A DNA stretch of 64,000 nucleotides from Lepidostoma basale (lineage: Eukaryota > Arthropoda > Insecta > Trichoptera > Lepidostomatidae): assembly GCA_022606425.2 (NCBI GenBank), contig JAHDVF020001564.1, forward strand, positions 496,001-560,000, read 5' to 3'. The notes under the pieces are model-generated. The model did no database searches, was not told where the DNA came from, and saw only the letters and a list, made by a program, of their open reading frames with translations. Position numbers and translations under genes: made by a program. Shown piece by piece: positions 6,441 through 63,150 of the stretch. The first letter of the stretch is position 1, and each line of letters starts with the position of its first letter.

Positions 6441-7724
6441 GGGCAATATTAAAACTAAATAAAAACATGGATTTACATGAATATGTAGACAGTGGTGGGT
6501 GGAGGGAGAGGGGGCGAGAGAAGGAAAGGGATTAGTGCGGTTAAAATACTTGTTAATTTTATTTTCAATTTAAAATGTCTAACCACAAAGTGTGTGCTTC
6601 GTGTGAAAATTTATATATAAATATTGTCCAATATCTGTAATATAAATAAGGCAAATTTATGTTAATGTAAAAGAATAACTGGTATCCCAGATACATTATT
6701 TTATTGAATTTTTTTTTGATAATTTTACAAAGAAAGCTCTTTAAAAAATTGAAATAAGTCAACTGGTATCAAAGTTATGATCTTTTGAAATCTACACTTG
6801 CACAATAACTTATACACTGCACATTCAATGATATGTGACTACCGTGGTTTATCCTTTATGAGGAATGAAGTTCTTTGAGAACACTCAAACTATCATGCCC
6901 GGTTTCACCTGGTTGTATTTTTTGCCTATTGGTTTCAATATAGTCTGCATCTTCGTCAGAACAAATGACTGGTACAGCAGAATCAATGGTTGAAATATGA
7001 TATAAGAGTACAGTGGAGTAATGATGTGTGACTACTAATTATATATTAATATTTAAAAAAAAATTAACTGTCCTATCACCAATATGTCTTCCATTAATGT
7101 GCCATTTTAGAATTCTGTAATGTTTAGTGTGTGTTAGGTGTGTAATTCTAGTGAATAAGAAAGAATAGTTTTTAATTGTAACTTACTTTATTTAAGACAC
7201 TATAACTAATATCAATAAACTATTTATATTAATTCTAACATAGGTACCATTAGTTAAATTTTAATGTCATTAAAAAAAACTTACAATACAAATAATTTCA
7301 TCACCCGACTATGAAAAAATGTTTTACACATTAGATTAACAGAATTGTGTCGATTTCCTGAGTGGGAACCAATTCCAATTTCCTAACCAAACAGGAAAAC
7401 AGTAACATCAACGTTAATGAGACGGTCATCAACGGGAAATATTGTTTAAAAACTTAGCACTTTACCTTAGCCTAGGGACATTCATGCTGGACTCGTTCAA
7501 TAAAGTATTAAACGCCTGATCGAGCTTAGACACTACTTAAACCATACTTATTCATTTCAACAATATCATACAACTTATTCCTTCTGTTATATTTCACCGA
7601 TGGCATACAAAAAGAATTACATGTATAATGCCAATGTTATTCTAAAATATTTGTACTCGTTAATAAATTTTCGGACTATCGTGTATTGTGGTGTTAATTA
7701 TACAACTTGATAATTCTATTTTGA
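6441..7724. other. AT-rich intergenic stretch, no gene seen
   Basis: I see no exon, RNA gene or recognisable element here, apart from a hammerhead-like motif at 6928-6959. Open frames are short and AT-driven. Confidence 0.5.
6928..6959 (-). ncRNA. Hammerhead-like ribozyme motif (solo, degraded stem III)
   Basis: On the minus strand: CTGACGA, an extra A, a 14-nt segment GATGCAGACTATATT whose ends can pair weakly, then GAAACC. The seven-base core is intact. Stem III is not palindromic as in the other copies (ACCAAT), so cleavage is unlikely. Confidence 0.4.
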
Positions 7725-7960
7725 TGAGAACAATAAGAAAGATCTGCAACGTGGAAGATGCCGTGCGATGGGGAAGACTGAGAAGACGCTACTGGAGAGA
7801 GCGTGTTCTGAAAGAGTGATAAATATACATAGCAGCAAATAAAGTACAAACAGGAAATCGACCTCCAGGAAGACCACCCAGCAGTTGGACACCTACATCC
7901 CAGGAACAGGCTCCAAGAAGTAACAGGAGACAGTCCTAAATAAAGCAGAGTAGATAATTC
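7725..7960 (+). mobile_element. Degraded LINE 3' fragment
   Basis: The translation shows a WGRLRRRYWRERV segment and, after a frameshift, NRPPGRPPSSW, which resembles the GRP tail of RTE-like ORFs. Stops interrupt it. Confidence 0.45.
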
Positions 7961-8117
7961 TTTGTGGGGAAACAAATGATTAAATGCATCAGTGATTAGA
8001 TCATTCAGAAGAATATGTCATATAATGACAAGAAGGTATTGCTTAAGACTCCGTATTAAATAATTAATAAGAACGAAAATGTCCGTTTTCTAGAATAATT
8101 ATTATATTTTATACGTA

Positions 8118-8182
8118 GCAAGTCGAAATATGTCATTCCCATAAAATATAATAAAACTTCTAGAAAATGTTTTCATTCGTAT
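8118..8182 (+). mobile_element. Half copy of fold-back family 1
   Basis: It reads gtcgaaatatgtcattccc and then the family 1 arm (ataaaatataataaaac, ttctagaaaa, ttttcattcg). Only the part after the GAAA box is left. Confidence 0.6.
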
Positions 8183-8252
8183 AAATCACTAAGATAGTTT
8201 GAACTTATGAAATAAATGAAGAATAACGAAGAAATTACAGTGAATTTAACGT

Positions 8253-8333
8253 TTTCCCGCCAATTGCGTTTTATTATTTCAGTCCCGATATATTTTAGTA
8301 CATATTTTACCCGCTTTAACGTTTTTTTCCCGC
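8253..8333 (+). promoter_or_regulatory. Cluster of E2F-like sites
   Basis: TTTCCCGC occurs at 8253-8260 and 8326-8333, with a related TTTACCCGC at about 8306-8314. About 70 bp downstream are an inverted CCAAT box (gattgg) and TATATAG (around 8437). This could be a promoter, but no coding exon is visible next to it. Confidence 0.3.
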
Positions 8334-8889
8334 AATTTACGTCGAAAATATGCGAGTTACGCGTGCTAGACAATGAGTCGGTGCATCGTTTCGGCCGTGA
8401 TTGGTCGGCATACGGCGCGCAATGTAGTGCTCCACTTTATATAGAAGTATCATTAACACCACAAAATGGTTGAGGAAAGTTTTTTCAAAACACAACAATA
8501 CATTTAATCCTTATAAAACCGGATAATTAAAACCAAGAAACTAAATAACTTTAGAAATAAATAAAATATTACAATTTGATTGTATTGATTTTATGTATTC
8601 CTCAGAGATGATTCTAGTATTTATATGTTATATTAGATACACACTTTTGATTGCCTACATATTTTGTTCAATAGATAATTAATACATAGAAATTCTATAA
8701 ATTTAAATGATTACTGTTGAGGTATAGATATTCCTAATACACAACCATATTACATTTAAGTTTGTATCCACCAAAAAACAAATCTACAATTTTAATAAAA
8801 TAAAGGCATTAGTAACACCACGGTGTTTTATAAACTTAGATGTTAGCACTGAAATTCCATAATGTCAATTTTTATGGATTTAATACTAA

Positions 8890-9115
8890 TGAAAACTTTG
8901 GTTTTCTAGAAGTTTAATTATAATTAATGTGACAAGTTTCACCTGTCTTAGGCATTATCAAATGTGATGTATTTAATAATGCCTTAGACAGGCGAAACAT
9001 GTCATTCCCATAAATTATAATAAAACTTCTAGAAAACAGACGTTTTCAATTGTATTAATTATTTAATATGGACTTGGATCTTCAGTTTTACATCATTGTT
9101 GAAGAAATAACATTT
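8890..9115. mobile_element. Fold-back family 1 element with two hammerhead-like motifs
   Basis: Two head-to-head arms. The minus-strand motif at 8931-8961 reads TTGATAA-T-GCCT...AGGT-GAAAC; the plus-strand motif at 8973-9003 reads TTAATAA-T-GCCT...AGGC-GAAACATGTC. Outside each motif the arms continue with the family 1 sequence (ttctagaa, gttttc). The core differs from CTGANGA at two positions or more. Confidence 0.6.
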
Positions 9116-9438: not shown

Positions 9439-9461
9439 GAAATAATTCATAAACTATTTTT

Positions 9462-10181: not shown

Positions 10182-10350
10182 AAATTTTTAATAACTACTT
10201 TATTTCGATAGTGACCGGTTTCGCCAGGCCGGCTGACCTCAACAGACTGGGTCGTATATGGGTTTTACCTGTCTGTCAATGCCAGTCAGTCTGGCGAAAC
10301 CGGCCGCCGTCGAAAAGACAAAGTGGAAATAGTTTTAAAAATATTTTGTT
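10182..10350. mobile_element. Fold-back family 2 element with two hammerhead-like motifs
   Basis: Minus motif 10213-10245: CTGTTGA, hairpin GTCAG/CTGGC, GAAACCGGTC. Plus motif 10273-10305: CTGTCAA-T, hairpin GCCAG/CTGGC, GAAACCGGCC. The arms continue with aaataaag/aaaagtgg-type sequence. The stems are well preserved; the CTGANGA box differs at one or two bases. Confidence 0.6.
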
Positions 10351-10604: not shown

Positions 10605-13182
10605 TTATGCATTCACAGAGATACCGTTAATTTTAAGTTTTTTGACGCGACGAGTCGGACCCTCGCCGTCGGAGCTGTCTGAATCCCCGTGGGAGCTCCC
10701 CTCGGACTTGATCCCGTTCATGGATACGTCGCTGGTGTCCACTGTGTAGTTACCCGTCGCTTTGGCTTTTTCTAGCGTCCGGACTGAAACAAAACATGCT
10801 CTATTACAACACAAATAGAAGTAAACAATATACAGGCAGCCCTCAACTTTCGCACAATTCACTATTTCGCACATTTTTCGTGTTTAACATTTGATAATGC
10901 TTAGAAGAGCGAAACTTGTCATTCCCAAAAAATATAATAAAACTTCTAGAAAACTGACATTTTCATTTGTATTAATTATTCCATAAATAGTTCAGCCAGT
11001 GGCGGCACTACCATACAAACCAAAAAGCCGGGCTTGCTTTAAAAAATCTAGCATTTGAGCCGTCTACAAATAAAATAATATTTTGAATATTCGCGCAAGT
11101 TAAAGCGATTTAATCCGTTGCGTTGCAAAAGACTCCACTGACATGCGCAGAAATGACCTAAATGTATGTTTTGTTCCATTAAAACGTGCTGTATTTTATT
11201 TCGCTCATATGTACCGTAGGTGAGATGCCCGCGAAATTGCCTGCGTCCACATGTTTTGTCTCATGTTTTCGATGGGCTTCATATTGGGCTTGGAAAATGT
11301 AAAAGGCACTTTGTTGCACTTACGTATTTTTGGCTTGTAATCATATAGCTAGAAGCTATCTACAATTTTTTGTATGGATCTGAAGCCTTTATCACTCTGA
11401 AGCATGTAACTATTCGATGTGTCATGAACTTCATTTCTATTGTCAGAATGTTATCTGTCATTTACATTATGTGTAGAAATGTTATGAAAAGAAAGAATAT
11501 GTAATTTCTTTACGAAAATTTATTTATAATTCGTGTTTCGGTGTTAACAAATTTATTATTATTGCCTATTTACAGCTTATTTCTTATTAATTATATTTCT
11601 TCTTGTATTTGTAAATACATTATTATATTATACAAGAACATGAGTTTGATGACGCAGAAAATAATTTTTTGTATAGATTTAAAATGCGCCTAAAATGGGA
11701 TTTAAAATCAATTAATTTAGAAAGATAAAACTCTTTTAATCCGGAAAAATACATTATCGTGACCCTCTACTAATATTATAACACAAAAAAAGTCGGATAG
11801 GCTTGCCTTACTGGTTGACGTCACCGGGTGCAGCGTGGTGTAAATGACATGATTGGGTTAAGATATTCTGAAATAACTGTATGAATACAAATGTATTGAC
11901 TTACTTTGCGTTTCCAGCATTGTGTTTTGCCGTTTTAGATCATCGATGTCACTCTGGTGGGACTTGTTTTTATGTCTCATGAATTGGATGTATTCCGCTG
12001 CTTTCTTCAGGATCTGTGCTCTACTCGCCTAGAAATAACACAGCGTAAAGGAACGTAACCACTTTCAAATCAAATCAGTTTATTTTCTCAAAAGATATTA
12101 CAAACAATTATTATAGTTTAAGACATCTATTGAGAACAGGTAAAATATAATAAATATATAATACCAGGAACGCATGAGAGATGGTTCGACATTAGGAATA
12201 CAAGATACTCTCCAAATCAAGAGTATTTGTCTTCTGAACGTACTTTCACTAATAAGACATCGATCTCCGAAGCGATCATGTTCGGCAGTTTGATTGCTCT
12301 CCCACCGGCATCACTAGAAGCAGGTTGGTTCTGCATGCTGGGAGATAAAACAGTCTGTGCTGACGCTGTCGAAGATAACCATCCGGAATATAAATATAGA
12401 TAGCCTCCAAGATGACGGAATTCTCAAAGAATCCTCTGATAAGTCTGTAGAAATGGGTAAGTGTGCACCTATCCCTGCTTATCTGTAGACTATTGGTCCC
12501 CAGCATGCCCAAGAGGAATGCAGTGGGATAAAGCCACGGATAGCTACCAAACTCCCTCATGTAGAGATTTTATAATAACAGCGGTTACATACTATGATGT
12601 AACAATAAAAAAATAACAAAAATCGTAGATATAAACAAATTTAAATATTTTCATCACAATATCATGAAAAGTGTGTAAAATTTTGTAAAAACACTTTAAA
12701 TAGACACTCCTTTAAATTTAAAAAAAAAATTGTGAGTTTTGTTTGTCTTGTGGTGAATGTTTTGAATGTTTGAAGATGTGAATGAGTCAAAAGGGATACT
12801 TACTACTTTCTCGCCTTGTAACGACGGAACTGAGTCTCTTAGGGAGGTAAAGCTATCTTTGATGTGGTCTCTCCGTTTCCTCTCCAGCGCATTGTGGTGT
12901 GCCCTCTTCTCCGCCTGCAACGAAAAAAGCAAATGTAAATCGTGAATAACGTCGATTAATAGAGTCCACCAGCAACGAATAAAACATACTTGGGAATAGT
13001 AGCCAATCATGCCGGAAGATTGTCTTATATGAGATCTCGAATCAGAATCGTCTCCCTCCTATAACAATACAAAGGCCGTACATATATTGCGAACACAAAA
13101 CTTAGGCAAGCTTAGAACCTAACAAATTGTATTTTATCCTTACGTCACTCTCGATATCTATATCGCGGTCGTCGTCGCTCAT
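10605..13182 (-). CDS. Max: Max, bHLH-leucine zipper partner of Myc (complete)
   Basis: Five coding exons on the minus strand: 13182-13144, 13058-12990, 12914-12807, 12028-11905 and 10783-10605. All borders are GT/AG and the phases agree, giving 172 residues (human Max has 160). The ATG opens [13 protein letters not shown], the acidic Max N-terminus. Residues 37-72 hold the basic region and helix 1 with His43, Glu47 and Arg51, the HxxxExxxR set that reads CACGTG; the loop ends SLQGEK. Residues 73 onward carry ASRAQIL, EYIQFM and the zipper, including the Gln-Asn pair (106-107) important for Myc/Max pairing. The tail has a Ser/Asp-rich stretch and a basic RRVKKLK nuclear signal. Max dimerises with Myc, Mad/Mnt or itself in the nucleus. 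Exon 2 adds 23 residues between the acidic start and the basic region. Intron 3 contains a CR1/Jockey-group fragment. Confidence 0.96.
10885..10985 (+). mobile_element. Half copy of fold-back family 1 in the last Max intron
   Basis: It begins TTGATAATGC, then gcgaaacttgtcattccc and the family 1 arm to ttcatttgtattaatt. A hAT-like repeat begins 12 bp further on. Confidence 0.65.
10997..11609 (+). mobile_element. Dispersed repeat with a hAT-like 5' end
   Basis: It starts CAGTGGCGGCACTACC and shares about 600 bp with 39400-39956 (ggcttgc..ttaaaaaatct, gagccgtct, gcgatttaat, gttatgaaaagaaag). CAGTGGCG is a common hAT terminus, but I found no matching inverted end or 8-bp duplication, so the class is an inference. 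Confidence 0.5.
12062..12565 (-). mobile_element. CR1/Jockey-group LINE 3' fragment
   Basis: The minus-strand frame shows [42 protein letters not shown], the end of a LINE ORF2. The 3' tail is a run of GATTT units, seen here as caaatcaaatcag. It lies in Max intron 3. At least nine related pieces occur in the window. Confidence 0.7.
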
Positions 13183-17231: not shown

Positions 17232-17531
17232 TCTTTTTTATATACTTTGTGTATACAACATTTACATTAAAAAAATTAATATTACATAGACATGTTTTGG
17301 ACAACCAGTCCTTCTTCAGTGATACATATTATAAAGATACATATTTAAAATATTATAAAATTGTTTACATGATCTGACAGATGTTATAAAGATTTGTCAG
17401 ATTATGTAAACAATTTTATAATATTTTAAATATGTATCACTGAAGAAGGACTGATTGTCCAAAACATATCTATGTAATTAAATTTTTTTTAAGTGTTCAA
17501 TATACAAAGTATACACAAAAGAAAAAGAGAA
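17232..17531. mobile_element. Fold-back family 7 element with two hammerhead-like motifs
   Basis: Long head-to-head arms (about 140 bp, nearly identical) sharing acatagacatgttttggaca and gtatacacaaa-type boxes. Minus motif 17289-17319 and plus motif 17440-17472 each read CTGAAGA-A, hairpin GGAC/GTCC, AAAAC, ACATGT or ACATAT. The core CTGAAGA is intact in both, but the GAAA box reads AAAA. Confidence 0.7.
17289..17319 (-). ncRNA. Hammerhead-like ribozyme motif (family 7)
   Basis: CTGAAGA, extra A, stem GGAC-TGGTT-GTCC, AAA, palindrome ACATGT, then C. The invariant G12 is A, so it is probably inactive. Confidence 0.45.
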
Positions 17532-19016: not shown

Positions 19017-19429
19017 TATTAACAGTGTAAATGAATCAAATGTATCATTTGATAATGCTCTAGTAGGGCGAAATATTTCACTCCCATACCAACTCAATTC
19101 TTTAACTAGGTAAGTCAAAATGTTCTGCTTTCATATGAAGCGTTTAATTTGTGGTTTGACACTATTAAAAGTAAATTATAACACTTGTTTAATTTATTTT
19201 AACACCACTTCATTTTTTTTTAGAACCAACCGGTTTCACTCCCAACGGAGCTCGGGGTAACAAAACAAACTGAAATTCTCATATCTGACAAAGTGATGCT
19301 GTTAGTTTTGAGCTATTTTATATTTAATTATGAGGTATTGTGCTATTTATTTTATGAAACTAAGGAAGAAAGAGTCAATAGATCGTAAGATGCCCATAAC
19401 TTCAGATATCTACTTTAACCTATTGATGC

Positions 19430-20922: not shown

Positions 20923-23900
20923 ATGTCTGATGAGAAGGTGACATCTTCATTTTAAACTAAAACAATATTGTAATATTTGTAACTTTAATGTGTCTTTAAA
21001 TGTTAAATTACGTGATTATATACTAGTATCCTTGTTTCGTGTTTTGTTGTTCCATTTAAGTAATTAAATAGTATATTTAATTGAAAATTTGTATTATAAT
21101 TAATTTTACTTATTTAAATATTAAATACAATAACGTTTTTAACGTTTTTGGATGACAGTGAATGTTTTTTGTTCTAGAAACCCGAGGATGAACTTGACCC
21201 GAGGATGGAGTTTCTTAGTACGTTTGTGCTTAAAGCCCTTCGACTCAAGAATGATAAATGGATGAAGATGTTACAAGGGGATGAAAAGGTTTTTATTAAT
21301 TTGTTTTAGTAATTCAACAGATTATTTTTGACTTTTGTAGATCGGTTTCAATATGATAACTTTAAAAATTTCCTGTGGATATTAAAATATTTTTTTTATG
21401 TTATTTAAAAAATGTATACTGCGGAATATTTGATTTATGCGTAGGTATATTTAAAAAAATCCAATCGCATTTAGTTAGTTCAATAAAACATACAGAGAAT
21501 CATACATTCAATTAATGACGTTTTTTTAAGTAGTTAATTATTTTTAATTGAAATTTCAAAAATTGTTATAAAAACTTTCTTTATTATTATATATTCAATG
21601 TACTTCTACTTGTGTTTTATATAGACCGGTTTCGGCAGCTTGCTGCCATCTTCTGGATGTTTTTATGAATTAAAACACTGTTTTTTTTTTCACTTTTGAG
21701 TTTATTTTTCTCGACATGTTTCGAAGGCTTGCACCTTCGTCATCGGGAGAACGATAAAAACAGTTTATATCGTTCTCCTGATGATGAAGGTCTTCGAAAC
21801 ATGTCAATCTCTAAAGTGAAAAAATAATGTTTTAATTCATAAAAAATCGTCATTGTGTTATCGTCATTATGTTATCGATTAAATAACTCATGGGCATTAA
21901 TAATATTTGATAATGTCCTAATAAGTCGAAAGATGTCACCCCCTTATAAAAAGAATAATGAATAATTATTTATTTCCACATTATTGTTTAAGAACTCGTG
22001 TGTGTAATATGATAAATATTACGAATATTGCACATTTAAAATTGGTAGCCTTAAAAAACATATTTATCTCTGTGAACAAAATAAAAATAATAGAAACGTC
22101 ATATTTTGTAGAAGATGTCATTCATGGCGCCATTTTCTTAAGAAAATATACGGGGATCGTATAAATATTTTATATTACATAACGTTTTAAGTAGCTTCAT
22201 ACTTAATGATCTATTTTTGAAATATATTGTGTCGATTCTGATAAACATAAGTAGTCGTGTATTTAATATTTATGAATAAGTCTACTGACAATTACTTGTT
22301 ACAAAAGTGACATGTCTTGCCTTGTTTGTTCGTTATAAATATTTGAATTATTTGCATGATTATTTTTTATGTTAATTATTAGCATTGATATAAACGTAAT
22401 TTGAATATAATTAGTATCTAAGTAAAACCATTTAACAATCGTGTTTACTATTATAAATTAATAATGGAGTTTTACAAAACTAATACCTCAACCATTAATG
22501 ATTTGTGTTTTTAGTTACTTCACAAATTATTGAAAAAGATTTACTACTTAAATTATCGTCAATATTCCTCTAAAATCGATTTTATAACTAACCAACAATA
22601 CCCATTGATTCAAAATAACCAATAATAATTATTATTGTCAAACACGTCGAATTATACATTTGCTTTTGTAAACTACGTTTTTAAGTTTGAATTTGAATTT
22701 CTTCTATTAGTTTGAATTTAAAAACACAGATGGCATCAATCCGTTATCATTGTTTGACTGATAGGAACGAATGGTCCGGGATCCGTTTGTTGGTATCGTT
22801 GTTTTATCGAGATTTTCGAAATGTCTTTCGAACGAAATAAATAAAGTTTATTTCAGTTTACAATGAAGGTTTAATACATTCGAAACATGTCTAGAGAATA
22901 AAGTGACTTTACTTATGTGAAAAAATTAAAAACTTTTATTTAATAAAAAAATATTGATTTTGGAATTCCAGTGTTAACGCTCCAAGTTTATCAAAAATCT
23001 TAATGTTTTGGTGAGATATTATCTTAGGCAGTTCAACCTGAAGAAATATGGGGCTATCAACGATTTCCATGTCTTGTTTTCGTAAAACATAATGTTTTTT
23101 TTATAATACTACCAAATTTGAATTTGAATTTGAATTGTGAATCCCTTCTTTGTCATATTAAGTCTACTGGCATCATCCTCATCAGTGCCTTCCGAGCCTG
23201 CTCTCATGCCAAGGTAGTCGAGACTGGTCGTAGTCACAAAGTTGACATCTTCAAGCAAGATTGACATATGCAGTTTACATAAAATTAATTGAGTATATTT
23301 AAATTTCATTTTTAGAATCACATCTTCAAATTCTTTGAGGACTTCACCATACCTGTGCTGACTTTCCACGTGAACAACTCTGGTTTCCTTCAGCCACACA
23401 TCGGTTACTGTCCAAGTGCCAAAAGCAAGATTGTGTACTTCGTTAGGAACACAGCTCAGGCCGTAACCAAGATTAATGTGCGATGCGTAAGTTTTTCTTT
23501 AAATAATTTTTTTAAAACTTCACATTGAATCAGGTACTTGTCATATACATTCCTTTTTCCAAAGTGGTTTATTAGAAAATCCATTGTACTTACATTCTTA
23601 TTTCCAAAGTGGTTTATTAGAAAATCCATTGCATTTACATTCCTATTTCTAAAGTGGTTTAATTGAAAATCCATTGCATTTACATTCCTATTTCCAAAGT
23701 GGTTTATTAGAAAATCCATTGCATTTACATTCCTATTTCTAAAGTGGTTTAATTGAAAATCCATTGCATTTACATTCCTATTTCCAAAGTGGTTTATTAG
23801 AAAATCCATTGCATTTACATTCCTATTTCTAAAGTGGTTTAATTGAAAATCCATTGCATTTACATTCCTATTTCCAAAGTGGTTTATTAGAAAATCCATT

Positions 23901-26900
23901 GCATTTACATTCCTATTTCTAAAGTGGTTTAATTGAAAATCCATTGCATTTACATTCCTATTTCCAAAGTGGTTTAATTAGAAAATCCATTGCATTTTAC
24001 ATTCCTATTTCCAAAGTGGTTTAATTTGAAAATCCATTGCATTTTACATTCCTATTTCTAAAGTGGTTTAATAGAAAATCCATTGCATTTACATTCTTAT
24101 TTCCAAAGTGGTTTATTAGAAAATCCATTGCATTTACATTCCCATTTCCAGAGCGGGTTATTAGAAAATCCATTACATTAACATTCCTATTGCCAAAGTG
24201 GTTTATTAGAAAATCCATTGCATTTACATTCCTATTTCCAAAGTGGTTAATTTGAAAATCCATTGCATTTACATTCCTATTTCCAAAGTGGTTTAATAGA
24301 AAATCCATTGCATTTACATTCTTATTTCCAAAGTGGTTTATTAGAAAATCCATTGCATTTACATTCTCATTTCCAGAGCGGGTTATTAGAAAATCCATTA
24401 CATTTACATTCCTATTGCCAAAGTGGTTTATTAGAAAATCCATTGCATTTACATTCCTATTTCCAAAGTGGTTAATTTGAAAATCCATTGCATTTACATT
24501 CCTATTTCCAAAGTGGTTTATTAGAAAATCCATCGTATTTACATTCCTATTTCCAAAGTGATTAATTTGAAAATCCATTGTTTTGGCTGTACATTAACAT
24601 TAAGATACTTCAACATTAATAAACTAACTAATCATCACAACCTTTTCTGGAGGGGTAGGCAGAGAAGATGGACTGCCACACTGCTCTAGCCTGATTCATT
24701 TATATAATTATATATCATAACATGCACACTAGTTGATTTTTTGTACTTTGAATGTTGCCAATTTTTAGTAATTGATTAATTTGGTCATTTAAATTATTAA
24801 TTTGGTTATAAAATCATTATTTATTTTATTTGTATGAAATTGTCACAAGAGCTGTTTCACCAACCAGTGTTGGCATCATTAGGTGTCATAAACAACTCGG
24901 GTGTTTGTAACAAACTTTAGTATTTATAGAGATATTAGAAGCCAGCACCTGTATGGGAAGGTTAAGGAAAAAACTTAGATAATTGAAGTGTGGTTTGATT
25001 TTGTATCATTATTTTTAGTTTATTTAAATTGCATTTTAAATGGTTATTAATGAATACTGTTTAGATGCTGATTGTGGGGGAGCTCTCCCAAGAGACAGTG
25101 AGTGAACTGACCGTCCTGACAGAGGAGATCTTCGCCCCGATGCTGTGCAACCCCAAAAACCAGAGCAACTGGCCCGAACTGGTCATTGAGGATGTAAAAA
25201 AGCACGTCTACAGTTTTAAGAACATTCTATACCAGGTAATATCAGAGATGTAATGCAGATGCATTTTTACTAAGAATTCTTACTAACTTACTTATTCAGA
25301 TGATGTTGTCCACTGCCGGACATAGGCTTCCTCTATACTTCTCCACATACTCCTATCGCTTTCTGCATCCAGTCACCAGTAATTTTCCTTATGTCAGCAG
25401 ACCATCGTGTGGGGGGTCTCCCTCTACTTCTTCTATCTTCACAAGGTTTCCACTCCACTAACGTTTTGATCTATCTCAATCACCAAAAAAAGGCATATTT
25501 TTATAAAGAAAATATCAGAGCGACAAAAAAAAATTAACTTAAGTCCAATAATTGATTTGTTTTCCTTTTTAACTCCCCCCCCCACTTTCAAATAGTATAT
25601 TAAATATGATTTGTTTATTTTTGTTGTTAAAATTTCTATATCTGTGGCCCGAATCATATTTATGACAGTAAGGTGTTGTGAAAATACAATGTTTTAAACA
25701 ATAAGTTATTTAGATAAAATTATTTTTCAATTCTTGTTATGAATTAAAAAAAAACATATATTTTCTGTTTAAATATCAGTTTACAGGCATGAAACTTAAT
25801 ACATTAACAAAATAATAATTAAATAAAACAATGTTTTTAACTACTTCCACTTTTGTCTTTATTTAAACAGCGACCGGTTTCGCCAGGCTCGCTGGCATCG
25901 ACAGACTGTTGTCTGTCGATGCCAGCGAGTCGATGAGAGAGACTCGATGAGTCTGTCGATGCCAGCGAGCCTGACGAAACCGGTCGCTGTCTAAATAAAG
26001 ACAAAAGTGGAAGTAGTTAAAAAACATCGTTTTATTTAATTATTATTTAAAATGAACTTCCATCAAGAGATTTCAGTAAAATCATTTGATTACATTAACA
26101 AAATGTGTCTCATATTGTTACTTCAGATTCAAGGTGAAATGAATAGTCAAGTTCTCCTGCCGATGCCAGCTGGAGTTGAAAAAATTTACCAAGTCGAAGA
26201 GGAATGGATTGCAAGGTAAATCATCTTCTTTTTCATGTCAATGGCAAGCTAGTCTCGTAAGGGTGACACTAAATAGGGTTTTGTATATCCTATTTCAATA
26301 TTTCATTCCAGAAGTGTTTTATGCGGTCTGTTTTGTTGTATGGTTTGGAAACCTGGACTCTGAAAGTGCATACTATGAATCGATTTGAGGCATTCGAAAT
26401 ATGGCTACACAGAAGAATGTTTTGTATAGCATGGACAGATTTGATCAATAATTCAAAAGCCTTGCTCATTGCAGCAGAGAATTGTTAAAGTGTATATAGG
26501 ACCCATAAAATTTATTATCTGGGTCACATCTTTTATGGAGATATATATAAAATCCTCCAATTCATGATAATAGGCAAATAAAAATATAGAAATAGCATAT
26601 GGGCCCATGCTTGGGGCGTAGTGATTGTTTTTAAAATATTCCCACATTCTGTCAGGATTTGGATTACCAATGACATCTATTGATTATACCACATATTAAT
26701 TTGTCGTATAGATACCTCTTCTACCAGCTGAATAAATCAACCAAATCAGTTAATTTTCTTAAAAGATGTTACAAAAATGTGTTTAAGGCTTGAGAACATG
26801 TAAAATATAATTTTAAATAAAATAATAATACACTTCAGTAATTTGTATTAACACCACTTTATTTGGTAACACCAACCGGTTTCGCTACCGCCGCAGCTTC

Positions 26901-50900: not shown

Positions 50901-53900
50901 AATTAATCCTTGAATTGATAACCCGCAATGGGTAAATAAAATCCAGTATTCGTCTACAAGTATTTGTTTACATTCAAAATGTTGTATAAATTTGTATGTT
51001 TTTAACTAGTTCATTAAATGAAGCATCTATAGCGCCTACAGCGCCTTGGAGATGATTCTTCTTCTTATTCATCATAGCTATTTCTACTTTTGATACAGTA
51101 GCTCTAAACAGGGATTTGTGCTGCAACTTAACCATTCGGCGTGAATGACACTATAATTAAATTTATTGTTTCTTGAACAATTATGTAAAACTCCATATTA
51201 AATAATGAATACGAATGAAAACGTCAGTTTCCTAGAACTTTTATTATATTTTATGGGAATGACATGTTTCGCCCTTCCAAGGCATTATCAAATGTACATT
51301 TCTAAGGCATTATACATTTGATAATGCCTTAGAAGGGCGAAACATGTCATTCCCATAAAATATAATAAAACTTCTAGAAAACTGACGTTTTCATTTGTAT
51401 TCATTTTTTAATATGGAGTTTTACGAGTAAATCATTGTTCAAGAAACAATAAATTTATCTACATGACTTATTGTTTAAAACATTGTATTTTCACAACACA
51501 TTACTGTCATAAATATGATTCGGGCCACAGATATAGAAATTCTAACAATAAAAATAAACAAATCATAGGTCAGGAGTTAAAAAAGGGAACAAATCAATTA
51601 TTGGACATGAAGTTAATTTTTTCTTTGTTTCTAATATTTTCATTTCTAATATTCAAATGTGGGTCAGATATGGCTTCAATTACTTCCCGAAACTTGAGTA
51701 AACAGATCAATTCGGCGATTCGAAGGGATCTTCGAAACGCAAACACACAAATGATCAAGGACGCAATTGAACAGAATAGGGGGTCCAAAGTGTTTACACA
51801 AAAACTGGGCAGAAGCCAACTGACTAAACTGAAAAATGAAGACGGCAATATCGTTACCTCCAAACCAGAGTTACTCGCGGAAGTCGAAAAATACTATGGA
51901 CGTCTCTACTCTAAACACGCTACAAGGCCCGTACTACATGACGAAGATGGTGATCCCAGAGCTAAAATAACCCGCCACCATACTGACGATCTCCCAGAGA
52001 TAAACATAGATGAAATTGAGATGGCCCTGAGACAGCTGAAAAACAACAAGGCACCAGGAGAAGATGGAATCACCACAGAACTTCTAAAAGCCGGAGGACT
52101 CCCAATTCTATGCGCACTACAAAAAATGTTTAATTCCGTACTGCGTAAGGAATGCACACCGAAAGCGTGGAGCGAAAGTATCGTGGTCCTCTTTTTCAAA
52201 AAAGGAGACAAGACTTTGTTAAAAAACTACAGGCCGATCTCACTCCTAAGCCACGTTTATAAGTTGTTCTCAAGGGTCATAACAAACCGTCTTTCCCGCA
52301 GATTTGACGATTTTCAGCCTCCGGAGCAGGCTGGGTTCAGAGCAAACTTCAGCACCATAGACCACATCCATACAGTTAGGCAGATTATCCAGAAAACAGA
52401 AGAATATAATCGACCCCTATGCCTTGCCTTTGTGGACTATGAGAAGGCCTTCGACTCTGTCGAGACCTGGGCTGTTCTGGAGTCTCTGCAGCGAAACCAG
52501 ATTGATTGGAATTACGTACAGGTGTTGAAATGCCTCTATAATAACGCCACAATGTCCGTTCAAATCCAAAACCAGAAGAGCAAACCGATTGAGCTGCAAC
52601 GGGGAGTCAGACAAGGGGATGTGATATCTCCGAAGCTGTTCACTTGTGCTTTGGAAGATATATTTAAAACTTTGGACTGGTCTGAACGTGGCCTCAACAT
52701 AAATGGCGAATACATATCTCACCTTCGTTTTGCGGATGACATTGTTATTCTGGCGGAATCTGCTGGGCATCTAGAAGGCATGCTAGATGAACTGAACACT
52801 GCATCCAGACGAGTGGGTCTCGGGATGAATATGGACAAGACGAAAGTCATGTATAATGAACATATTATCCCGGGATCAGTAACCGTCGATGGGTCGGCTC
52901 TCGAAGTGGTACAAGAATACACATATCTTGGCCAAATCATACAATTAGGACGAGATAATTTCGAGAAAGAAGCCAACCGAAGAATTCAGTTGGGTTGGGC
53001 GGCCTTTGGGAAATTACGTCATGTTTTCACTTCCAAAATACCACAATGCCTCAAGACTAAAGTCTTCAACCAGTGCGTTTTGCCAGTCATAACATACGGA
53101 GCCGAGACGTGGACATTGACAAAAGGTCTAGTCTACAGATTCAAGGTTGCCCAGCGCGCCATGGAAAGAGCCATGCTTGGAATAACCTTGAGGGATAGAT
53201 TTAGAAACGAATTTATTCGACAACAAACCAAGGTGACTGAGGTGGCTCTACGGATAGGCGGGCTGAAGTGGCGGTGGGCTGGCCATATCTGTCGGAGAAC
53301 CGACAGCCGATGGGGAAGACGGGTTCTGGAGTGGAGACCGCGTACAGGATTCCGTAGAGTTGGACGTCCCCCTGCCCGCTGGACCGACGATCTGAAGAGG
53401 ATTGCTGGACATGGATGGATGGGAGCGGCAATGGATAGGGGGCGGTGGAGGGCTTTGGGAGAGGCCTACATTCAGCAGTGGATGACAGACGGCTGATGAT
53501 GATGATGATGAAATGTGACGAAACTTCAACTCGTTGCAGTTTATATACACTAGTAAATGGAGCAGAATATAGTAATTAACAAAAATTGATGTGACTTCAT
53601 ACATTTTTAACAAATAATTATTTGGGTAGGTTCAGAAATATTGGAAAGTGTTTCTTGGAACTCGATAAGAAATTTTTTTAACAATGATTACATGTTTAGG
53701 ATACTGAATGATATTTATGATACTTTTTATATTATTTTATTACGTATTACTTATTATTGTGTATCTCTAACTTGTATCTTGAGTGTATTGGGAAAAAAAA
53801 TCACAAAAGTGAGTGTATTGGGAAAGATATATTTAAATAAATAAATTAAATGAAATAAATAAAAGATAAAAATAATTTCATAACTTTTGTTAGTTCCATA

Positions 53901-56900
53901 TGCATAACTTAAACAAATAATCAACCATCAAGATCATTTTATACCACCCTGTGTTTATAATCACCGGGGACCCAGGGAGTTACAATCAATTAATAGTCAA
54001 AACTATAGGTATAATAGTTTTATCTTGTTAATAAAATTTGAATGTCTCTTTAGTCTCAACGACATGGAGGACTTCATAGAGCAATCTGTGAACTGCCTGA
54101 GCATCGAGCTGCGTGAGAACGACTACGAGGGCCTGCTCTGTGTCATGCCCTGCCTCATCAAAGTACGAGAGAGGCAGGAGGTCAGCACCAACGCGCTGTT
54201 TGGACCGCTCAATGAAATAATAGAAGTTCTCAAAACCTATGGAGTGGAATTTCCGGAAGAAAATAGTGACCAAGTGAGTTGTTATTATTTCATTGTAAGG
54301 TAGATATTTTTTTGTGTCAATGTCACGCCATCTCCCCGAAGGGGTAGGCAATAGGAATGGAGCACCACACTGTTCATTCCAGACACTTTTCTTGCTTCCT
54401 TACATGATGACATGCATGCATATAATTTTTTCAAACTCCTCACATGGCGACATTGAATATTTAATTGATTTGATCTATGAAACATATTTTCCCAGTCTTC
54501 CTCTATTTCTTGTACCATTTACATCGTTATCATATACTTTCTTTATCATATTCATTCTTTTCACGTGTCCAAACCATCTTAATGAACCTTTTGTTATTTT
54601 GATCACAATTCTTCATTCATACTGCATTCACTTCTCTATTTGAATTTGGTACTCAATCATACGACCTTCGTGGCAGAGTGGTTACGAGCTCTGACTTCCA
54701 TGTTGAAGGTCCTGGGTTCAATTCCCGGCGATGGCAGTGTGATTGTTACACTGTCTGGTCTGGTGTAGAATTCACGTGACAATAAAATGGCGATAGATTG
54801 GCTACCTATCACATGTCACGAGAATCAATATAATAGCTAAAAAATAATAATTGTACACAGTAATTGGGTCCAAACGACCTGTTGTGTACATAAAAAAAAA
54901 TATATATATATATATCTAGATTTATCGCACACTCATCTAAGAGATCATCCTTCTTTTACCAGTTCCATGCTTACCTTATGTAAGGGTGCGACATAATGTT
55001 TACGTAGTTTAAGAATACCAAATAATCTGTCTGTTTCATGTCAATGGCAATCTAGTTGTAAAACTTGCCCAAAAAGGCATTATCTCATAATTGCATTATG
55101 TTTTTTCTTTTGTCATTGTGGTGGAAGGTTTAGCCGACCTTGTGTCGTTTCCAGGAGCACCGGGTGTTATAATTTTAGGAGCAAGGAAGGTGCCACAACA
55201 TGTGATATCACAATTTTATTATTTGATATTATACATATGCTTTTTTTAATTACACCAGTGTACATTGTGTTACGTTTAATTGCTGCATTGTTATAAATAT
55301 GTATTAAACTACCCATTTTCTTATAGTTAAACCTTTCATTCCGTGTTTTGCAACCCTCCTGAAGAATGGAAAGAAGAAACTCTCCGTTTATACTCTGGTA
55401 AGTGTTTTCAAATTTATATAATCTATTTGTGTAGAATTATGACGAGATTCTCCAATGAAAATTAACGAACACACGTTGATTTTTTATGGAGTATATTAAA
55501 AAATGTATTTATTTGTACTTGTGTTTTGTTTCTTGAAAGCATCAATTGATGTTTTCAAGATGTGGTGCTGGCGGCAAATGCTGGGTATACACTGGATGGC
55601 AAGAAAAATAAACCAGTCGATCATTGATCAGCTGGGTATCAGGGCAGGGAGGACATTTGCGAATGTGCTCTCAGAGAGTATTAAAGTATTTTGGCCACAT
55701 AGCCCGGAAAAATCAGGACGACCTTGAAAAGCTCATCATCATGGGCAAAGTAGAGGAAAACCGACCACAAGGACGACTACTAAGCCTCTGGTCCGATCAA
55801 ATCAGGGCGCCGACTGGTCTCTCATTAGCTGTAGTCTGGAGACTGGCTGGTGACAGGAGCGCATGGCGTGCCATGGTCAATAGTTTACAGGATGGACACG
55901 ACCCTCAATTATAATCAATACGACTAAGAAGAAGATTGTTTCTTGAACAGTGATATAAAACCCTATATTAAAAACAATAATACAAATGAAAACGTCCATT
56001 TTCTACAAGTTTTATGATAGTTTATGGGAATGAAAAATTCAGCAGTAGCGTTAAAAGCGTACTGCTGTACGGATGTGAGACTTGGAAATCTACCGCAGAC
56101 GTTATTGGTAAACTCCAGGTGTTTATAAATAGGTGCCTTCGCTCAATATTCAAAATCTATTGGCCCCAAACAGTGTCAAATGCCGTTCTCTGGACCATGG
56201 CAGGCGAAAAGCCAATTAGAGAACAAGTCGCTAGGCGCAAGTGGCAGTGGATCGGTCACACTCTGAGACGGAACCCAGCCTGCATCGCTCAGGGCGCACT
56301 AGACTGGTCCCCTATGGGGGGAAAGAGAAAGTGAGGCAGACCTAGAGCCACCTGGAGAAGAACCCTGCAGGGCGAGGTTAAGGCAGCAGGTCTCACTTGG
56401 GACGATGTTAAGCATCAGGCATGCGATAGAGTCGGGTGGAGAAGATTCCTCGAGGCCCTATGCACCACGGAGGTGTGACAGGACAAAAAGAAGAAGAAGA
56501 AGATGGGAATGACATGTTTCACATTTTTAAGGCATTTTCAATTACCACATTTAACATTTTAACAAATGTCACATTTTATCTAACTAACCATCACGCCATC
56601 TCTCCGAAGGGGTAGGCAGAAAGAATGGACCGCAAGGCTGTTCTTGTTTCCTTATCATTCCTCACATGCTTTTCTCGTTTCCTCAACATTCGTTTATCGT
56701 GTCATGCTCGCACAACGATTGTAAACATTATATAAGAAAAATAATGTTACTTATTATTTCATCTATGAATCAGTATTTCAAAGTATAATTTCTTAACAGA
56801 GTTATCAAAATTTTAATATTTAGGTAAGTCTGCAATGCAAACAAAATAATGCTTAAAGTAGATAATCGAAGTAATATAGAAGAGTAACACAAAATGAATG

Positions 56901-59900
56901 CAAAAATATTAAGCAAAATAACATACATTATATGTTTTGTGGAATCTTGGGTATATCCGTGTAACTTGTCTTTCTTGACCAACGTTTTGGAGATCGTTGC
57001 AGTCTCTATCATCAAGATTTCCATCTCCATCTTCAAGATCCCGAGTTCCCATAAAACATATTGCTACCAACCGTGAAAATCTATGCCGTTATTCAAAATA
57101 ACACAGTTGGAGAAAAATAATATCAAGTCAGGAGAAGAAAAAATATGGGGACTAGGGATGAAAAAACACTAATTTTTAAGATGAGTTGATGTATATTTAT
57201 TTAGATATTAATCAATACATTTTATTTTACAGCTGGAAGTCTTGCCAGAGAAGTGGAAGAACTTGTTATCACTGGCGGCCGTTGTGAAACACAATGTGGG
57301 ATCCCTGCAGACCAAGCATGCTCAGGTCATCTCCAAGCAGGTGATCCTCTTCAACCATCAGATGCAGCTCTATCGTAATGACTTCAAATCCAAGAAGGTC
57401 AGTTACAAGACTACCTCAATAAATCTGTCCTCCATCTCACCAATTTAAAATAATGACATTGATCTCCCAAATTATCATGTTCAGCAGACTGCGTCACCAG
57501 AGGCAGATTGGTCCAGGTGACCGGATGATAGAACAATTTATACTGTCGCTGCTGGAGATATCTGTCGGCTAAAAGGTCCCCACCCTCCAACACTTCTGAG
57601 TTTTTGAAATAACACCTGATTAATCTAAAGAAATGGTTTTTAGAAACTTTCTTCTCTTTGAAGCTGCTGAGAGTTTGTTTTTTAACATTTCCAAAAGAAA
57701 TGCCTTAATTAATACGAATGAAAATGTCAGTTTTCCAGAAGTTTTATTATATTTTATGTGAATGACATGTTTCACCCTTCTAAAGCATTATCAAATGTGA
57801 CGAAATTTCAGCTTGTTACAAATTTCAAAGTGTTTCCCGCCAAAACAATGGATTTTGTAATGCCTTTGATTGGTGATAGTCATTTTGAATAAAATATTAT
57901 TTCTGTGTAGCTTAATTGGTTGAAAGCACTGCACCTGGATATGGAGGGAAGAGGGTTGAAATATTTTTGTTATGAGTTTTTTTTTAACAACAGTATATTC
58001 TTCAGAGATATTTTGAAGCTGACACAGAGCAAAATTAGGCCAATAGAAAAAATAATCTGGGATTCGTTGTCGACCCTTTTTTTATTTCTCATTTGTGATC
58101 CGATTTTCACAAATGAGCAAAAAAAAAGGTTACCAACAAAAAATATCCGTTATTTTTTATTATAACTTCCATAGTAATAAAAATGTGGCACAATTTTTTT
58201 TTATATATTAAACTTTGCGCGGAACCTCTGATGTTGTTCAGGGACCCCCAAATCAATATTAATTTTCCACGGACTCCTGAATGATCCCAGGGACCCCTGG
58301 GGGCCGTGCCCACTTGGGGAATCACTGGTCCAGATCTTCGACCACCAGGACGACCACCAAAGATATGGAGAGATAGCTGGAAGTCTCCATCACAGGAAGA
58401 AAATTGATATCCTGATCGTAGATCGCAAGATCTACAATAAGGAGAAGAATACGAATAAGAACATAATATTCTGACAATGAAATTTCTCAATAGACTGCTT
58501 GGTGTATAGATTAGAAATATATCCTTTATGTATTTACTGACGCCGAATGATGATTTTTCAGTTTTTCTTTGTCGACTGCGAGGATGTATACGAACTAATA
58601 GACAAGACACATCTTGAGCTGCTGCACTTTGAAGAAATGGCTTCCTGCTTATCGCAATCTTGTCAGCTGTTTGACATTCCCTCGCCTGATCCAAGATCCA
58701 TCCTGGCGACTAGGCGAGAACTAAAGATGTCCAAGGTGAATAAAATTTTAATACATAAACAAGTTCGAGACAAGAAACTGCCACATCGAAGGTCCCAGGT
58801 TTCCGACGATGGTAGTATGATTGTCACATTATCTTTGGTCTGATGTGGAATTTACGTGACAATAAAATGACGATAGATTAGCTACCTATTACATGTCATG
58901 AGAATCAATAGCTAAAAAGCACGCTAGAATAGAACTAGCTGTACCCGGCCACACGTTGCTATGGCTCAGTCTAGTTAAATTGAAAAGGAGAGCACACATT
59001 TATAATACATATATGTTAAATTTCACAATACTTGTGAGTATACAATATTTTTTGTTCTAAAACTAATCTCTTAGGCAAACGTTTCCCTTTCCTTAGTGAA
59101 CCAAGGTTTGGGTTGTTCAAAAAATAATATATATTTGTTTTCAATATATTTTATTTCTTCTTCTTCTTTCGGTGCCGTGTCAGGTCCCCCTAACGTTGGC
59201 GATCACTGCAGCAAAGGCATCTCTGTTCTGCGCCACTTAGAACAGGTTCTGAACTCTTGTAATTCCTGTCCACTCTTCATGTTCCGCAGCCAGGACAACT
59301 GCCTTCTACCAACTCCCCGACGTCCCTCCACTTTACCCATTAATATCAGTCGAAAGAGGTGATATTTTTCTCCCCTTAGCACATGACCCAAATATTCTAA
59401 GTAATAAGTCTCTTTTCTTGCAGTTTTATTATATTTTATGTGAATGACATTTTTTGCCTGTCTAAAGCGTTATGAAATGTAGCAAAAAAATCAAACACGT
59501 TGTTGTTTATAAGCACTAGTTAAAGGAGCAGATTATGGTAAATAAGAAATTGATGAGGCCCAATACATTGTTGAAAACAATTAAGGGATTAACCCCAAAA
59601 TACAGGAAAGTAACAAGATACATTTATGAATGTTCTAGAAACAATTAATAGATTTGTCTACCCAATTGAGTTATTTCATTTAAAAAATAAATAAAAAAAC
59701 ATTAAATGTTTTTATAGCAACTCTGGGACTATTACTTCTTAGTCCAGTGGGCAATAGAGGACTGGAAGAAGACACCGTGGAAGATAATTGATGCGGAGAG
59801 CATGGACATGGAGTGCAAGAGATTCACCAAAGACCTGCGGGCCCTTGACAAGGAGATGAGAGTTTGGTAAATATTACTATAGTTGGCGCTTACATTATGA

Positions 59901-61021: not shown

Positions 61022-61426
61022 TCGTGGGTATACTGGCAAAAAACGTTAAGTCGAAAATTGGCAGTTTTGACTTAGTGATGCAGTATTGTAAAGTTTACAA
61101 TGCTCTACAAATTGGCAAAATACACGAAGTCGAATGAAACAGATTTTTTCTCTAGTTTTAAAAATAAATTTAACGTTAAATCGTACAAAAGGTATTTCAT
61201 ACAGGCTAAAAGCTTCAAAAAACTTAATATTAATCGAAGAGTCTTGTTGAACATTTTTGTACTGGAAAAAAACGTTAACTCTACTTATTGTCTTCGGCTG
61301 AAAAAAATTCCCTCGATTGACTTTTGACAACGACACTTATATGTTTCAAATTTAAAGAAAACTTAAATGTTCGATTTCTCAAAACAGCGATTTTAGACTT
61401 AACGTTTTTTGCCAGTATACCCACGA
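61022..61426. mobile_element. TA-flanked MITE with 31-bp perfect terminal inverted repeats
   Basis: Both ends read inward start TCGTGGGTATACTGGCAAAA and stay identical for 31 bp (61022-61052 against 61396-61426). TA flanks both sides (61020-61021, 61427-61428). Interior has further aacgttaa boxes. No transposase. The perfect ends imply a recent insertion of mariner-like type. Confidence 0.8.
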
Positions 61427-61429
61427 TAT

Positions 61430-62460
61430 ATTGTAGAATTCATAATGTATGTTTTTTTTTAAATTCACAAGCAGAATATTGTTTTTAAATTTGGTTTCAT
61501 TAGAATCATTATAGAATTCATCTTCTTCTTCTTCTTTGTTAGCCTTCTTCCATCCACTGCTGGATATAGGCCTCTTCCAATTTCCTCCACTCGTCTCTAT
61601 CCTGCCCCCTTTGTATCCAAGATTTTCCAACCCTTTTGACAATATCACCGGTCCATCTCATCAGTGGCTTTCCGAAACTTCGCCTATTTGCCCATGGTCT
61701 CCAACTGAGTATCCTGGGTGCCCATCTGTTGCCACCCTGTCTAGCCAAGTGTCCAGCCCATTGCCATTTCAATTTTGCCACTCGGTCCATGACGTCAGCA
61801 ACCCTGGTGCAGGGTCTGATTTCTTCATTCCTTATGCGGTCACGCAAGCTCACACCAAGTATCTCTCTTTCCGTGGACCTCTGTGTACACTTGAGCCTGT
61901 GGATACTTTTTGCTGTTAGAGTTGTCGTCTCTAGTCCGTATGTCATCATGGGCAATATACACATGTCGTAGACCTTACTTTTGAGACAAACCGGTATTTC
62001 ATCATTTTCAAAGACATGTCTCAGTTTACCAAATAATTCATAATGTTTGTTTATTTTTAAATTCATTACAGAATAGCAATGTTCTTATCCTCATTCTCAA
62101 CAAAGTCACTTCCAACAGGTGGGGGGGCAATAGCCTTCGGGCTGATACTCCCAAAAGACAAGATTCTAGATAGGTCTAGAAGCAATATTCTGTTGTTTAA
62201 TTTTGGTTCATTATAAAGATTGTAGAATTCATAACATTAGTATTTTTAATTAAATAACACAAAAGCATATTTTGTTTTTAAATTTCCATTCATTAAAATG
62301 ATTGTAGATTTCATATTGTTTGTTTATTTTTAAATACATAGCAAAGTTCTGTTTTTAATTTTCATTCATTGTTGAGAGATTGTAAAATTCATACCGTTTT
62401 ATTTCTTAAATACATTATTTCTTTTGTAAAGTAATAATTTACTTTCATTATTAATTGTGT
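61430..62460. repeat. Degenerate tandem repeat of about 80 bp, interrupted by a LINE
   Basis: Units start (a)ttgtagaattcataatg and contain tttttaaatt and a cattaaaat-type box: at about 61431, 61508, 62034, 62218, 62300 and 62383. The LINE at 61522-62034 splits the array; the segment 62085-62190 (gtgggggggcaatagcc) is foreign to it. Confidence 0.6.
61522..62034 (-). mobile_element. RTE-like LINE 3' fragment (family D), intact frame, 7-bp target duplication
   Basis: aattcat at 61515-61521 and 62035-62041. The minus strand is one 175-codon frame with LPMMTYGLETTTLTAKSIHR, EREILGVSLRDRIRNEEIRP and LSWRPWANRRSFGKPLMRW, stop and (GAA)n. About half as similar to the 51463-53496 ORF as to its own family D short copies. 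Confidence 0.8.
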
Positions 62461-62466
62461 GTTTAG

Positions 62467-62850
62467 AAAACAAGCTCCGCCGCGGAGGAATCAAAGACCT
62501 TCTTCATTCACTCATTCGCACCCCATTCATTCGTCGTGAACGGCAGAACCATCACACCGCACGTGACACACAATTCATCTCACCTGCCATCTAGATCCCA
62601 TCTGAGCACGTTGACCAGGAAGATTATAGCCCGGAAGAGAAAGTGTATGAAGGCGATAAAAAATAAAATCTACGAATCGCAGAGCATGCCAAAACCGAAT
62701 ATGAACTCGTATTCTTTAAAGGATTTTGATTTGGATGTGGATTCTTCGGATTGTAAGGAAGGAATAGATTACAAACGTTTTCAATATAAAAAAGTTGTCT
62801 CGCAGAAGAGTAATGATTTTCCTTATATATTTTGCGAGTATTTTAATTGA
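62467..62850 (+). CDS. Unidentified open exon, possible alternative end of the dynein tail
   Basis: After tgtgtttag the sequence is open for 127 codons to a TGA, in the phase left by dynein exon 28 (phase 0). Start KTSSAAEESKTFF, then a basic stretch TRKIIARKRKCMKAIKNK and an acidic KDFDLDVDSSDCKEG. It is GC-richer at its start than the surroundings, as exons here are. It does not resemble the dynein linker that should follow. Either a terminal exon making a truncated protein, a separate gene, or a chance frame. No AATAAA follows closely. Confidence 0.35.
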   Translation, partial: KTSSAAEESKTFFIHSFAPHSFVVNGRTITPHVTHNSSHLPSRSHLSTLTRKIIARKRKCMKAIKNKIYESQSMPKPNMNSYSLKDFDLDVDSSDCKEGIDYKRFQYKKVVSQKSNDFPYIFCEYFN

Positions 62851-63029
62851 ATATTTGGGAAATTGCAACATCTTCATTATGTGTGAGGTTATTGCGAAAT
62901 AATTAAATGATTTTTTAATATATTTTATTATATATATTAGATTGTTGCCATCTTCTGGTATATAATACTGTGATCAAAAAGTATTTTGAATTTATTACTG
63001 TTAAAATTGAAAACACTTATAATATCACA

Positions 63030-63150
63030 ATTTCTTTTTATTCACTGAGAGTGATGTTGGCATCATCAGGTGATACAATAAACATGTTGAAACAGCTGTC
63101 ACGACACTCTCAGTGAATAAAATGAAATTGTGATATTATAACAGTGTTTT
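63030..63150. mobile_element. Fold-back family 4 element, rearranged
   Basis: ttattcactgagagtg is inverted as cactctcagtgaataa. The left part has CTGATGATGCCAACATC on the minus strand, the right part gttgaaacagctgtcacg on the plus strand, so the two halves of the hammerhead-like motif are on opposite arms. Confidence 0.55.

Follow-up and report, generated by a model that had tools for sequence, protein, structure and literature searches.

The 64,000-nucleotide stretch of the Lepidostoma basale genome (769 Mb) analysed here, C684:496001-560000, is called the window throughout. Along it lie short repeats of several families, a number of them palindromic, that have the order of parts of the type I hammerhead of Rfam RF00163 (box, stem II, GAAA, stem III, H, stem I). 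Comparison of their sequences makes it very probable that they are the pseudo-long terminal repeat (pLTR) ends of several lineages of Penelope-like elements (PLEs) whose coding part has been lost. The window repeats contain no open reading frame (ORF) and are therefore termed non-autonomous, and each palindrome is two pLTRs standing head to head with the ORF absent. The sites listed below were located with a covariance model, R1, built from 14 sequences that lie outside the window and belong to the same families as the window sites; ten of these 14 come from the 196 kb that flank the window and make up with it a contiguous 260 kb. E values in the list are from the R1 search, and a dot marks features without strand.

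25800..25813 (.): left target duplication of the F2 insertion, TACATTAACAAAAT, identical to 26091-26104
25814..26090 (+): F2 insertion, an inverted repeat with an inverted short arm (to 25908), a centre and a long arm with tail (25950-26090)
25866..25909 (-): F2 hammerhead motif, box CTGTCGA, palindrome ACCGGT, E 2.1e-12
25948..25991 (+): F2 hammerhead motif on the opposite strand, E 3.8e-9
26091..26104 (.): right target duplication of the F2 insertion, 14 bp
10207..10311 (.): second F2 palindrome, motifs 10207-10250 (-), E 7.8e-7, and 10268-10311 (+), E 5.6e-5
51158..51457 (+): F1 palindrome, box TTGATAA, motifs 51255-51296 (-), E 9e-11, and 51313-51354 (+), E 1.4e-10
8925..9009 (.): F1 palindrome centre, motifs 8925-8966 (-), E 2.9e-7, and 8968-9009 (+), E 9.4e-8
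57758..57799 (-): solo F1 motif, E 1.1e-7
42163..42204 (-): solo F1 motif, E 3.8e-7
10886..10926 (+): solo F1 motif, E 7.8e-6
19044..19085 (+): solo F1 motif, E 2.7e-6
56505..56546 (-): solo F1 motif, E 4.4e-5
21666..21845 (+): F3 palindrome, motifs 21707-21751 (-), E 6.2e-12, and 21773-21811 (+), E 6.6e-9
21618..21660 (-): F5 motif, box CAGAAGA, palindrome ACCGGT (ATCGAT in another copy), E 2.1e-9
37028..37313 (.): F4 element, intact box, palindrome ACAGCTGT, motif 37126-37172 (-), E 7.2e-9; ends taken from BLAST pieces
24841..24887 (-): decayed F4 motif, E 9e-4
26868..26910 (-): F6 motif, intact box CTGACGA, E 4e-12
19222..19260 (-): decayed F6 motif, E 0.001
17267..17492 (.): F7 palindrome, motifs 17283-17324 (-), E 9.9e-10, and 17435-17476 (+), E 7e-6
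6116..6164 (-): F9 motif, palindrome ACTAGT, E 7.3e-5; a better copy lies at C684:450448

The window F7 palindrome has AAAA instead of GAAA in both arms (both copies outside the window have GAAA), and the F3 palindrome at 21666..21845 gives 80 matches genome-wide from the 40 scored of 2724 candidates.

The original prediction for this DNA was of one hammerhead-ribozyme architecture shared by at least seven repeat families at about twenty sites between 6928 and 63110. Trained outside the window, R1 confirms the shared architecture, with 23 window matches whose E is printed as 0.001 or less (31 at E<=1); the flanking 196 kb contain another 29 sites at the former level. If the 260 kb were typical the genome would hold ~150,000 sites, a figure that is a rough guide because it is based on a single locus. 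Both ends of the predicted range are weak (6918-6964, E 0.14, and 63023-63074, E 0.084, with R1), and the count of about twenty stands or falls with the box. A descriptor composed of box, stem II, GAA and palindrome, with 12 order-1 Markov shuffles as controls, agrees with it when two box mismatches are allowed (25 window sites; 5-14 in the shuffles), but with at most one mismatch in the box and one in GAA it gives only 7 sites (0-2 in the shuffles), 2 of which are exact (0 in the shuffles). Each of the seven named families has further copies in the 260 kb, where two additional ones, F8 and F9, are also found. One extra base after the box is indeed the rule, since among sites of the 260 kb with an exact box and at most one GAA mismatch there are 0, 1, 2 and 3 extra bases at 1, 10, 0 and 0 sites, respectively. 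Blocks of the form A-4nt-T are palindromic in 14 of 41 cases after CGAA and in 36 of 228 after GAA (~7.2% expected), and one version of the motif, with an exact box, one extra base and a GCC/GGC stem, is matched exactly at 4881 places in the genome, the reversed pattern at none. The Rfam hammerhead search that had been proposed as a check missed the window motifs, giving no match in the window at the gathering score and none at E<=10. Genome-wide, a single place among the 73 scored of 94533 candidates exceeds the RF00163 cut-off (L001 1501-1617, minus strand, type I); it has a stem II loop longer than 70 nt and was set aside.

Pairing was assessed in an alignment (A2) of 23 sequences from eight families (F1-F7 and F9), from which three rows were left out, F1b and F1d for their poor alignment and F8a because its short palindrome was misaligned. 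Paired cells amount to 82.3% (58.5% after shuffling), cells changed on both sides to 66 (24.6) and the covariation score to 0.542 (0.165+-0.021); none of 500 shuffles is as high in any of the three, and slid controls score at most 0.175. The 14 non-window rows by themselves score 0.708 (0.194+-0.032 shuffled). Relatedness and choice contribute to these values, because the rows and the structure were picked by us. Stem II is paired in 100% of A2 cells (three aligned pairs) and 95.7% of those in alignment A3 (five pairs), and stem III in 98.6% and 97.7%, so that the predicted compensating pairs are borne out above shuffles in stems II and III; covariation appears to extend to stem I weakly. The palindromes observed are ACATGT, ACCGGT, ATCGAT, ACTAGT, ACAGCTGT, ACGT and ACAAATTTGT, and both halves of the palindrome have changed between two F5 copies (ACCGGT and ATCGAT). 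As had been predicted, C or T follows the palindrome at the window descriptor sites, but one PLE has A there. Unlike RF00163, to which no window site could be matched, the motif has one unpaired base between box and stem II, and its stem III, self-complementary over 4-10 nt, lacks a loop and so can form only between two RNAs.

Sequence identity places F2 among the PLEs, and its tail and box do so for F1. The genome gives 62 GIY-YIG matches among the 150 scored of 541 candidates, and one 3.5 kb stretch, L052, has a 758-codon open frame (stop to stop) with both reverse transcriptase (RT) and GIY-YIG domains beside F2 (protein P0002; RVT_1, E 1.4e-13; GIY-YIG, E 6.6e-5). Its inverted repeats, 1-351 and 2610-2960 (99.4%), are directly followed by an F2 motif and tail, and window positions 25950-26095 are 98.6% identical to L052 2966-3111, at the 3' end of this PLE; an RT with GIY-YIG near longer copies was what the original prediction had proposed to look for. 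A PLE protein search (89 scored of 3862 candidates) falls into bands of ~83-100%, ~44-49% and ~41-43% identity to the query, with one match at 68%, and these bands may be read as lineages. One PLE end was fetched per identity group (from the ORF-flanking side for L053 and L054), and all three carry the motif, one by eye only. In L054 an intact-core motif lies at 166-208 (R1 E 8.5e-11), 33 nt past an ORF stop read by hand, and in L053, a tandem junction, the motif seen by eye is 82 nt before the ORF start MEFYQTKTSTIN; the F1 tails read MEFYIIVQETIN. The motif in three PLE ends, the F2 identity and the tails of F1-F4 all support the view that the repeats are non-autonomous relatives of PLEs from several lineages. 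The earlier account was right on architecture and, very probably, on origin, although we prefer "hammerhead-fold" to "ribozyme" as the name for the motif.

The PLE relatives found are insect-annotated. Tandem PLE copies (41-42% identity to the query), mostly 2954 bp apart, lie on either side of a divergent centre at C308:2096145-2107985 and C502:3014-14849; their frames have 829-861 codons, except for one C502 copy that is a partial match with a 742-codon frame.

The arms of the palindromes differ in that one ends near the ORF start codon and the other has a tail that extends ~40 nt into the ORF. In F2 (where the match ends at L052 3064 and the ATG is at 3068), F3, F4 and F6 the short arm ends close to the start codon, and in F7 it ends earlier; of 49 F1 BLAST pieces, 14 end at query 92-109, 19 at 136 or beyond and 16 elsewhere, the start codon being at ~105. 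The start codon follows the predicted cleavage position by 64 nt in F1, 66 in F2, 58-59 in F3, 59 in F4, 65 in F6 (GTG in the measured copy), 84 in F7 and 82 in L053, and the outer end follows it by 107 nt in F1, 105 in F2, 98-101 in F3, 104 in F4 and 103 in F7 (one to three copies per family; the F7 end from one copy pair). Tail peptides were scored with a matrix made from 35 PLE N-termini that had been selected for an F or Y shortly after M, against 5410 background ATG frames, F7 being left out. Background frames scoring as high make up 0.26% for F1, 0.94% for F2, 1.2% for F3, 0.02% for F4 and 0.04% for L053; the F1 and F4 values, and that of F6 below, are flattering because they were read across copies, and the reading frame changes in the window F4 copy. 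By hand count, 21 of 24 F3 loci combine a long arm, whose end is constant, with a short arm (these loci are best full-length matches, among which truncated copies are under-represented). Target duplications flank the F2 window copy (14 bp) and some F3 copies: flanks share at least 8 nt at nine of the 21 scorable F3 loci, four of them with 13-15 nt, and at 11.2% of mismatched flanks. Solo arms occur as well as palindromes. Taking the opposite strand as the sense strand was considered and dropped, as tails and duplications fixed the orientation.

Several of our results weigh against this origin. The L052 frame apparently lacks its own N-terminus, the R1 search misses the L053 motif, and F5, F8 and F9 have here neither an ORF-start tail nor a linked PLE. 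The F6 tail peptide does not stand out (9.8% of background frames score as high), and at 12 of the 21 scorable F3 loci there is no shared flank of at least 8 nt, three of the nine shared ones being near-pure A or T runs. Stem I has only ~63% of its cells paired. Of the five covariation measures, two weaker ones show no clear excess over shuffles: A2 has 9 pairs with change on both sides (7.7 shuffled; 15 of 500 shuffles as high) and 23 further pair types (21.5; 159 of 500), and for the 14 non-window rows the corresponding numbers of shuffles as high are 158 and 17 of 500. Tentatively, F5 through F9 may also belong to the PLEs, the link being weak for F6 and F7.

The CTGANGA-like box originally described holds for F4, F6, F7 and F8, copies of which have it whole, as does the L054 PLE, but the box is not canonical in F1, F2, F3 and F5. 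In the standard hammerhead numbering, F3 has CCGATGA (U4C) in 19 of 28 arms and CTGATGA in one; F2 has CTGTCGA in three of five copies and CTGTYRA in all five, its PLE included (A6U); both F5 rows used have CAGAAGA (U4A); and the F9 copies differ (CTGATAA and CTAATGA). Among F1 BLAST pieces with the box fully printed, 14 of 19 have TTGATAA (C3U with G8A), one TTGAAAA and four other boxes; under a stricter anchor TTGATAA is found in two of four. The L052 PLE has CTGTCGA and the L053 PLE TTGAAAA, and so substituted cores occur in F1, F2, F3, F5 and two of three PLEs, with stems II and III still paired. In the active hammerhead fold C3 pairs with G8, and the U3-A8 that replaces them in F1 and the L053 PLE would keep the 3-8 pair; F1 and L053, where this covariation is seen, may be one lineage.

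The fold could have been retained because RNAs pair at it, or a protein binds it, close to where RT starts, and not for the sake of cleavage, the changed cores being dead or slow ribozymes; we give this a substantial chance, somewhat short of an even one. Core substitutions that are the family majority (as in F3) and recur in the L052 and L053 PLEs fit it, as do the fully paired stem II and nearly fully paired stem III of A2, and cleavage mutants of an Anolis PLE are reported to insert in vitro nonetheless (PMC11167929). Against it, F4, F6, F7, F8 and the L054 PLE retain the whole box, and U3-A8 could stay active, as the C3G/G8C swap partly is in the Anolis PLE (PMC11167929). A bolder idea, on balance doubtful, is that evolution preserves the hammerhead as a platform for pairing, with stem II and the self-complementary stem III lying near the RT start, and lets its catalytic letters drift or co-vary; the repeats would then be either natural hammerheads with new cores or a ribozyme fold that now serves as a signal for dimerisation or for positioning the RT, present in very many copies in this one genome. 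What the hammerhead does in PLEs is called a mystery in the review PMC7761336. Searches that demand the canonical box would miss F1, F2, F3 and F5. This genome offers natural variants, with intact beside substituted cores, stems II and III kept, and measured distances to the ORF start and element end, and a comparison of these native variants can separate cleavage from pairing.

For the non-autonomous PLEs that we favour, mobilisation could proceed as follows. The element would be transcribed, and the RT/GIY-YIG protein of a related full PLE would act in trans and cut AT-rich DNA; reverse transcription might begin inside the tail and copy through the motif, and a turn-around or priming at a second end would yield the inverted partner. 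The self-complementary stem III may let two RNAs pair at the motif. Palindromes might alternatively arise by cDNA self-priming at each insertion, rather than by copying of a palindromic RNA or priming on both target strands. The junction palindromes and head-to-head layout of an Adineta PLE have been read as self-priming (PMC3846280), but most of the F3 copies listed share one centre, as would suit amplification of an existing palindrome, and the Anolis protein is described as extending both strands (PMC11167929); we consider self-priming at each insertion rather unlikely.

Orientation bears on another possibility, that these are animal retrozymes, whose type I hammerhead repeats stand in tandem and are replicated by way of small circular RNAs. 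Among the first 100 of the 4881 exact-match places, 16 motif pairs lie within 300 nt of each other, 14 divergent, none convergent and two tandem; PLE protein neighbours within 5 kb, among the 89 matches, are 9 divergent, none convergent and 8 on the same strand, some of the last being fragments of one copy. The likeness to retrozymes that had been suggested extends to the type I order of parts and the weak stem III, and PLEs have been proposed as the machinery that moves retrozymes (PMC7761336); but close motif pairs here stand head to head, not in tandem, and tails enter PLE ORFs, which makes a retrozyme origin highly improbable. Least probable of all are DNA transposons with long terminal inverted repeats (miniature inverted-repeat transposable elements) whose subterminal hairpins resemble a hammerhead by accident, since, in spite of the palindromic layout, the many copies and the lack of an Rfam match, the arms are unequal with one constant end (21 of 24 F3 loci), the shared flanks vary in length rather than being fixed, F1-F4 tails have PLE-like ORF starts and F2 sits on a PLE, so that F2 and F3 already contradict it.

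Hammerheads in PLEs have reportedly been described by Cervera and de la Pena in 2014 and Lunse et al. in 2016. The literature compared describes minimal type I hammerheads in PLE pLTRs, along with thousands scattered through non-coding DNA (PMC7761336); an Adineta Penelope with an inverted pLTR, a 31-bp tail on one side and a tail-less inverted pLTR 37 bp shorter, as well as palindromic junctions, duplications of 8-10 bp and a gene mobilised by the pLTR (PMC3846280); and the Anolis PAc element, in which RT starts inside the ORF and the hammerhead is protein-assisted (PMC11167929). The elements described here are like the last two in having an ORF with RT and GIY-YIG, an inverted pLTR, head-to-head palindromes, a one-sided ORF-start tail of 30-40 bp, 8-10 bp target duplications and a minimal type I hammerhead near the ORF start. 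Since hammerheads, inverted pLTRs and tails have all been described in PLEs, the kind of element is known. Unlike in those two, there are here many ORF-less copies of several families in one genome, and the F1, F2, F3 and F5 cores are substituted; 58-84 nt separate the predicted cleavage position from the start codon, whereas the PAc ORF begins at stem II (PMC11167929), and the short arm stops near the start codon, whereas the Adineta pLTR already includes 12 codons (PMC3846280). Metazoan non-LTR retrozymes, as described in PMC7229834 and PMC7761336, are likewise non-coding, a few hundred bp long and equipped with type I hammerheads, but their repeats are tandem, whereas neighbours here are head to head and have PLE tails. 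Two features go further than the literature compared: how many ORF-less families a single genome contains, and that cores are substituted although the stems are kept, in two PLEs as well; the extra base and the core variants may have been reported before. Among open-licence papers, none stood out that reports hammerhead-bearing palindromes of ORF-less PLEs from insects.

A scan of viral contigs for the motif plus AATAAA gave 0 matches. An ACGT-type motif occurs in at least 120 stretches, nine of the 80 examined having at least five stem pairs; eight of these nine loci (L117 excluded) have 0 Rfam hammerhead matches, and the stretches are presumed to be chance or coding. Six IMG/VR contigs (L097, L103, L108, L116, L120 and L123) have CTGANGA-W-stem-CGAAACGTC with six stem pairs and no Rfam hammerhead match; the stem-loops are identical in some of them.

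Outside the window, an element of ~1 kb with nested inverted repeats surrounds two F8 arms (83 nt, 100% complementary) at L003 4949-5971, and a 359-codon frame, presumably mariner-like from its motifs and probably a nested insertion, lies inside an F6 palindrome centre (L007 2107-3186). Directly beside the window F1 palindrome is a 694-codon open frame (51412-53496, plus strand), which was rejected as a PLE because it matches RVT_1 only, with no GIY-YIG; from its motifs it is probably an RTE-type long interspersed nuclear element. The window also contains an HLH domain fragment (12699-13058, minus strand) and dynein heavy chain exons (DHC_N1; 27540-27926 and 28272-28598, plus strand), near which a 45-bp unit is repeated in tandem in 23 copies with 91% matches (23542-24580).

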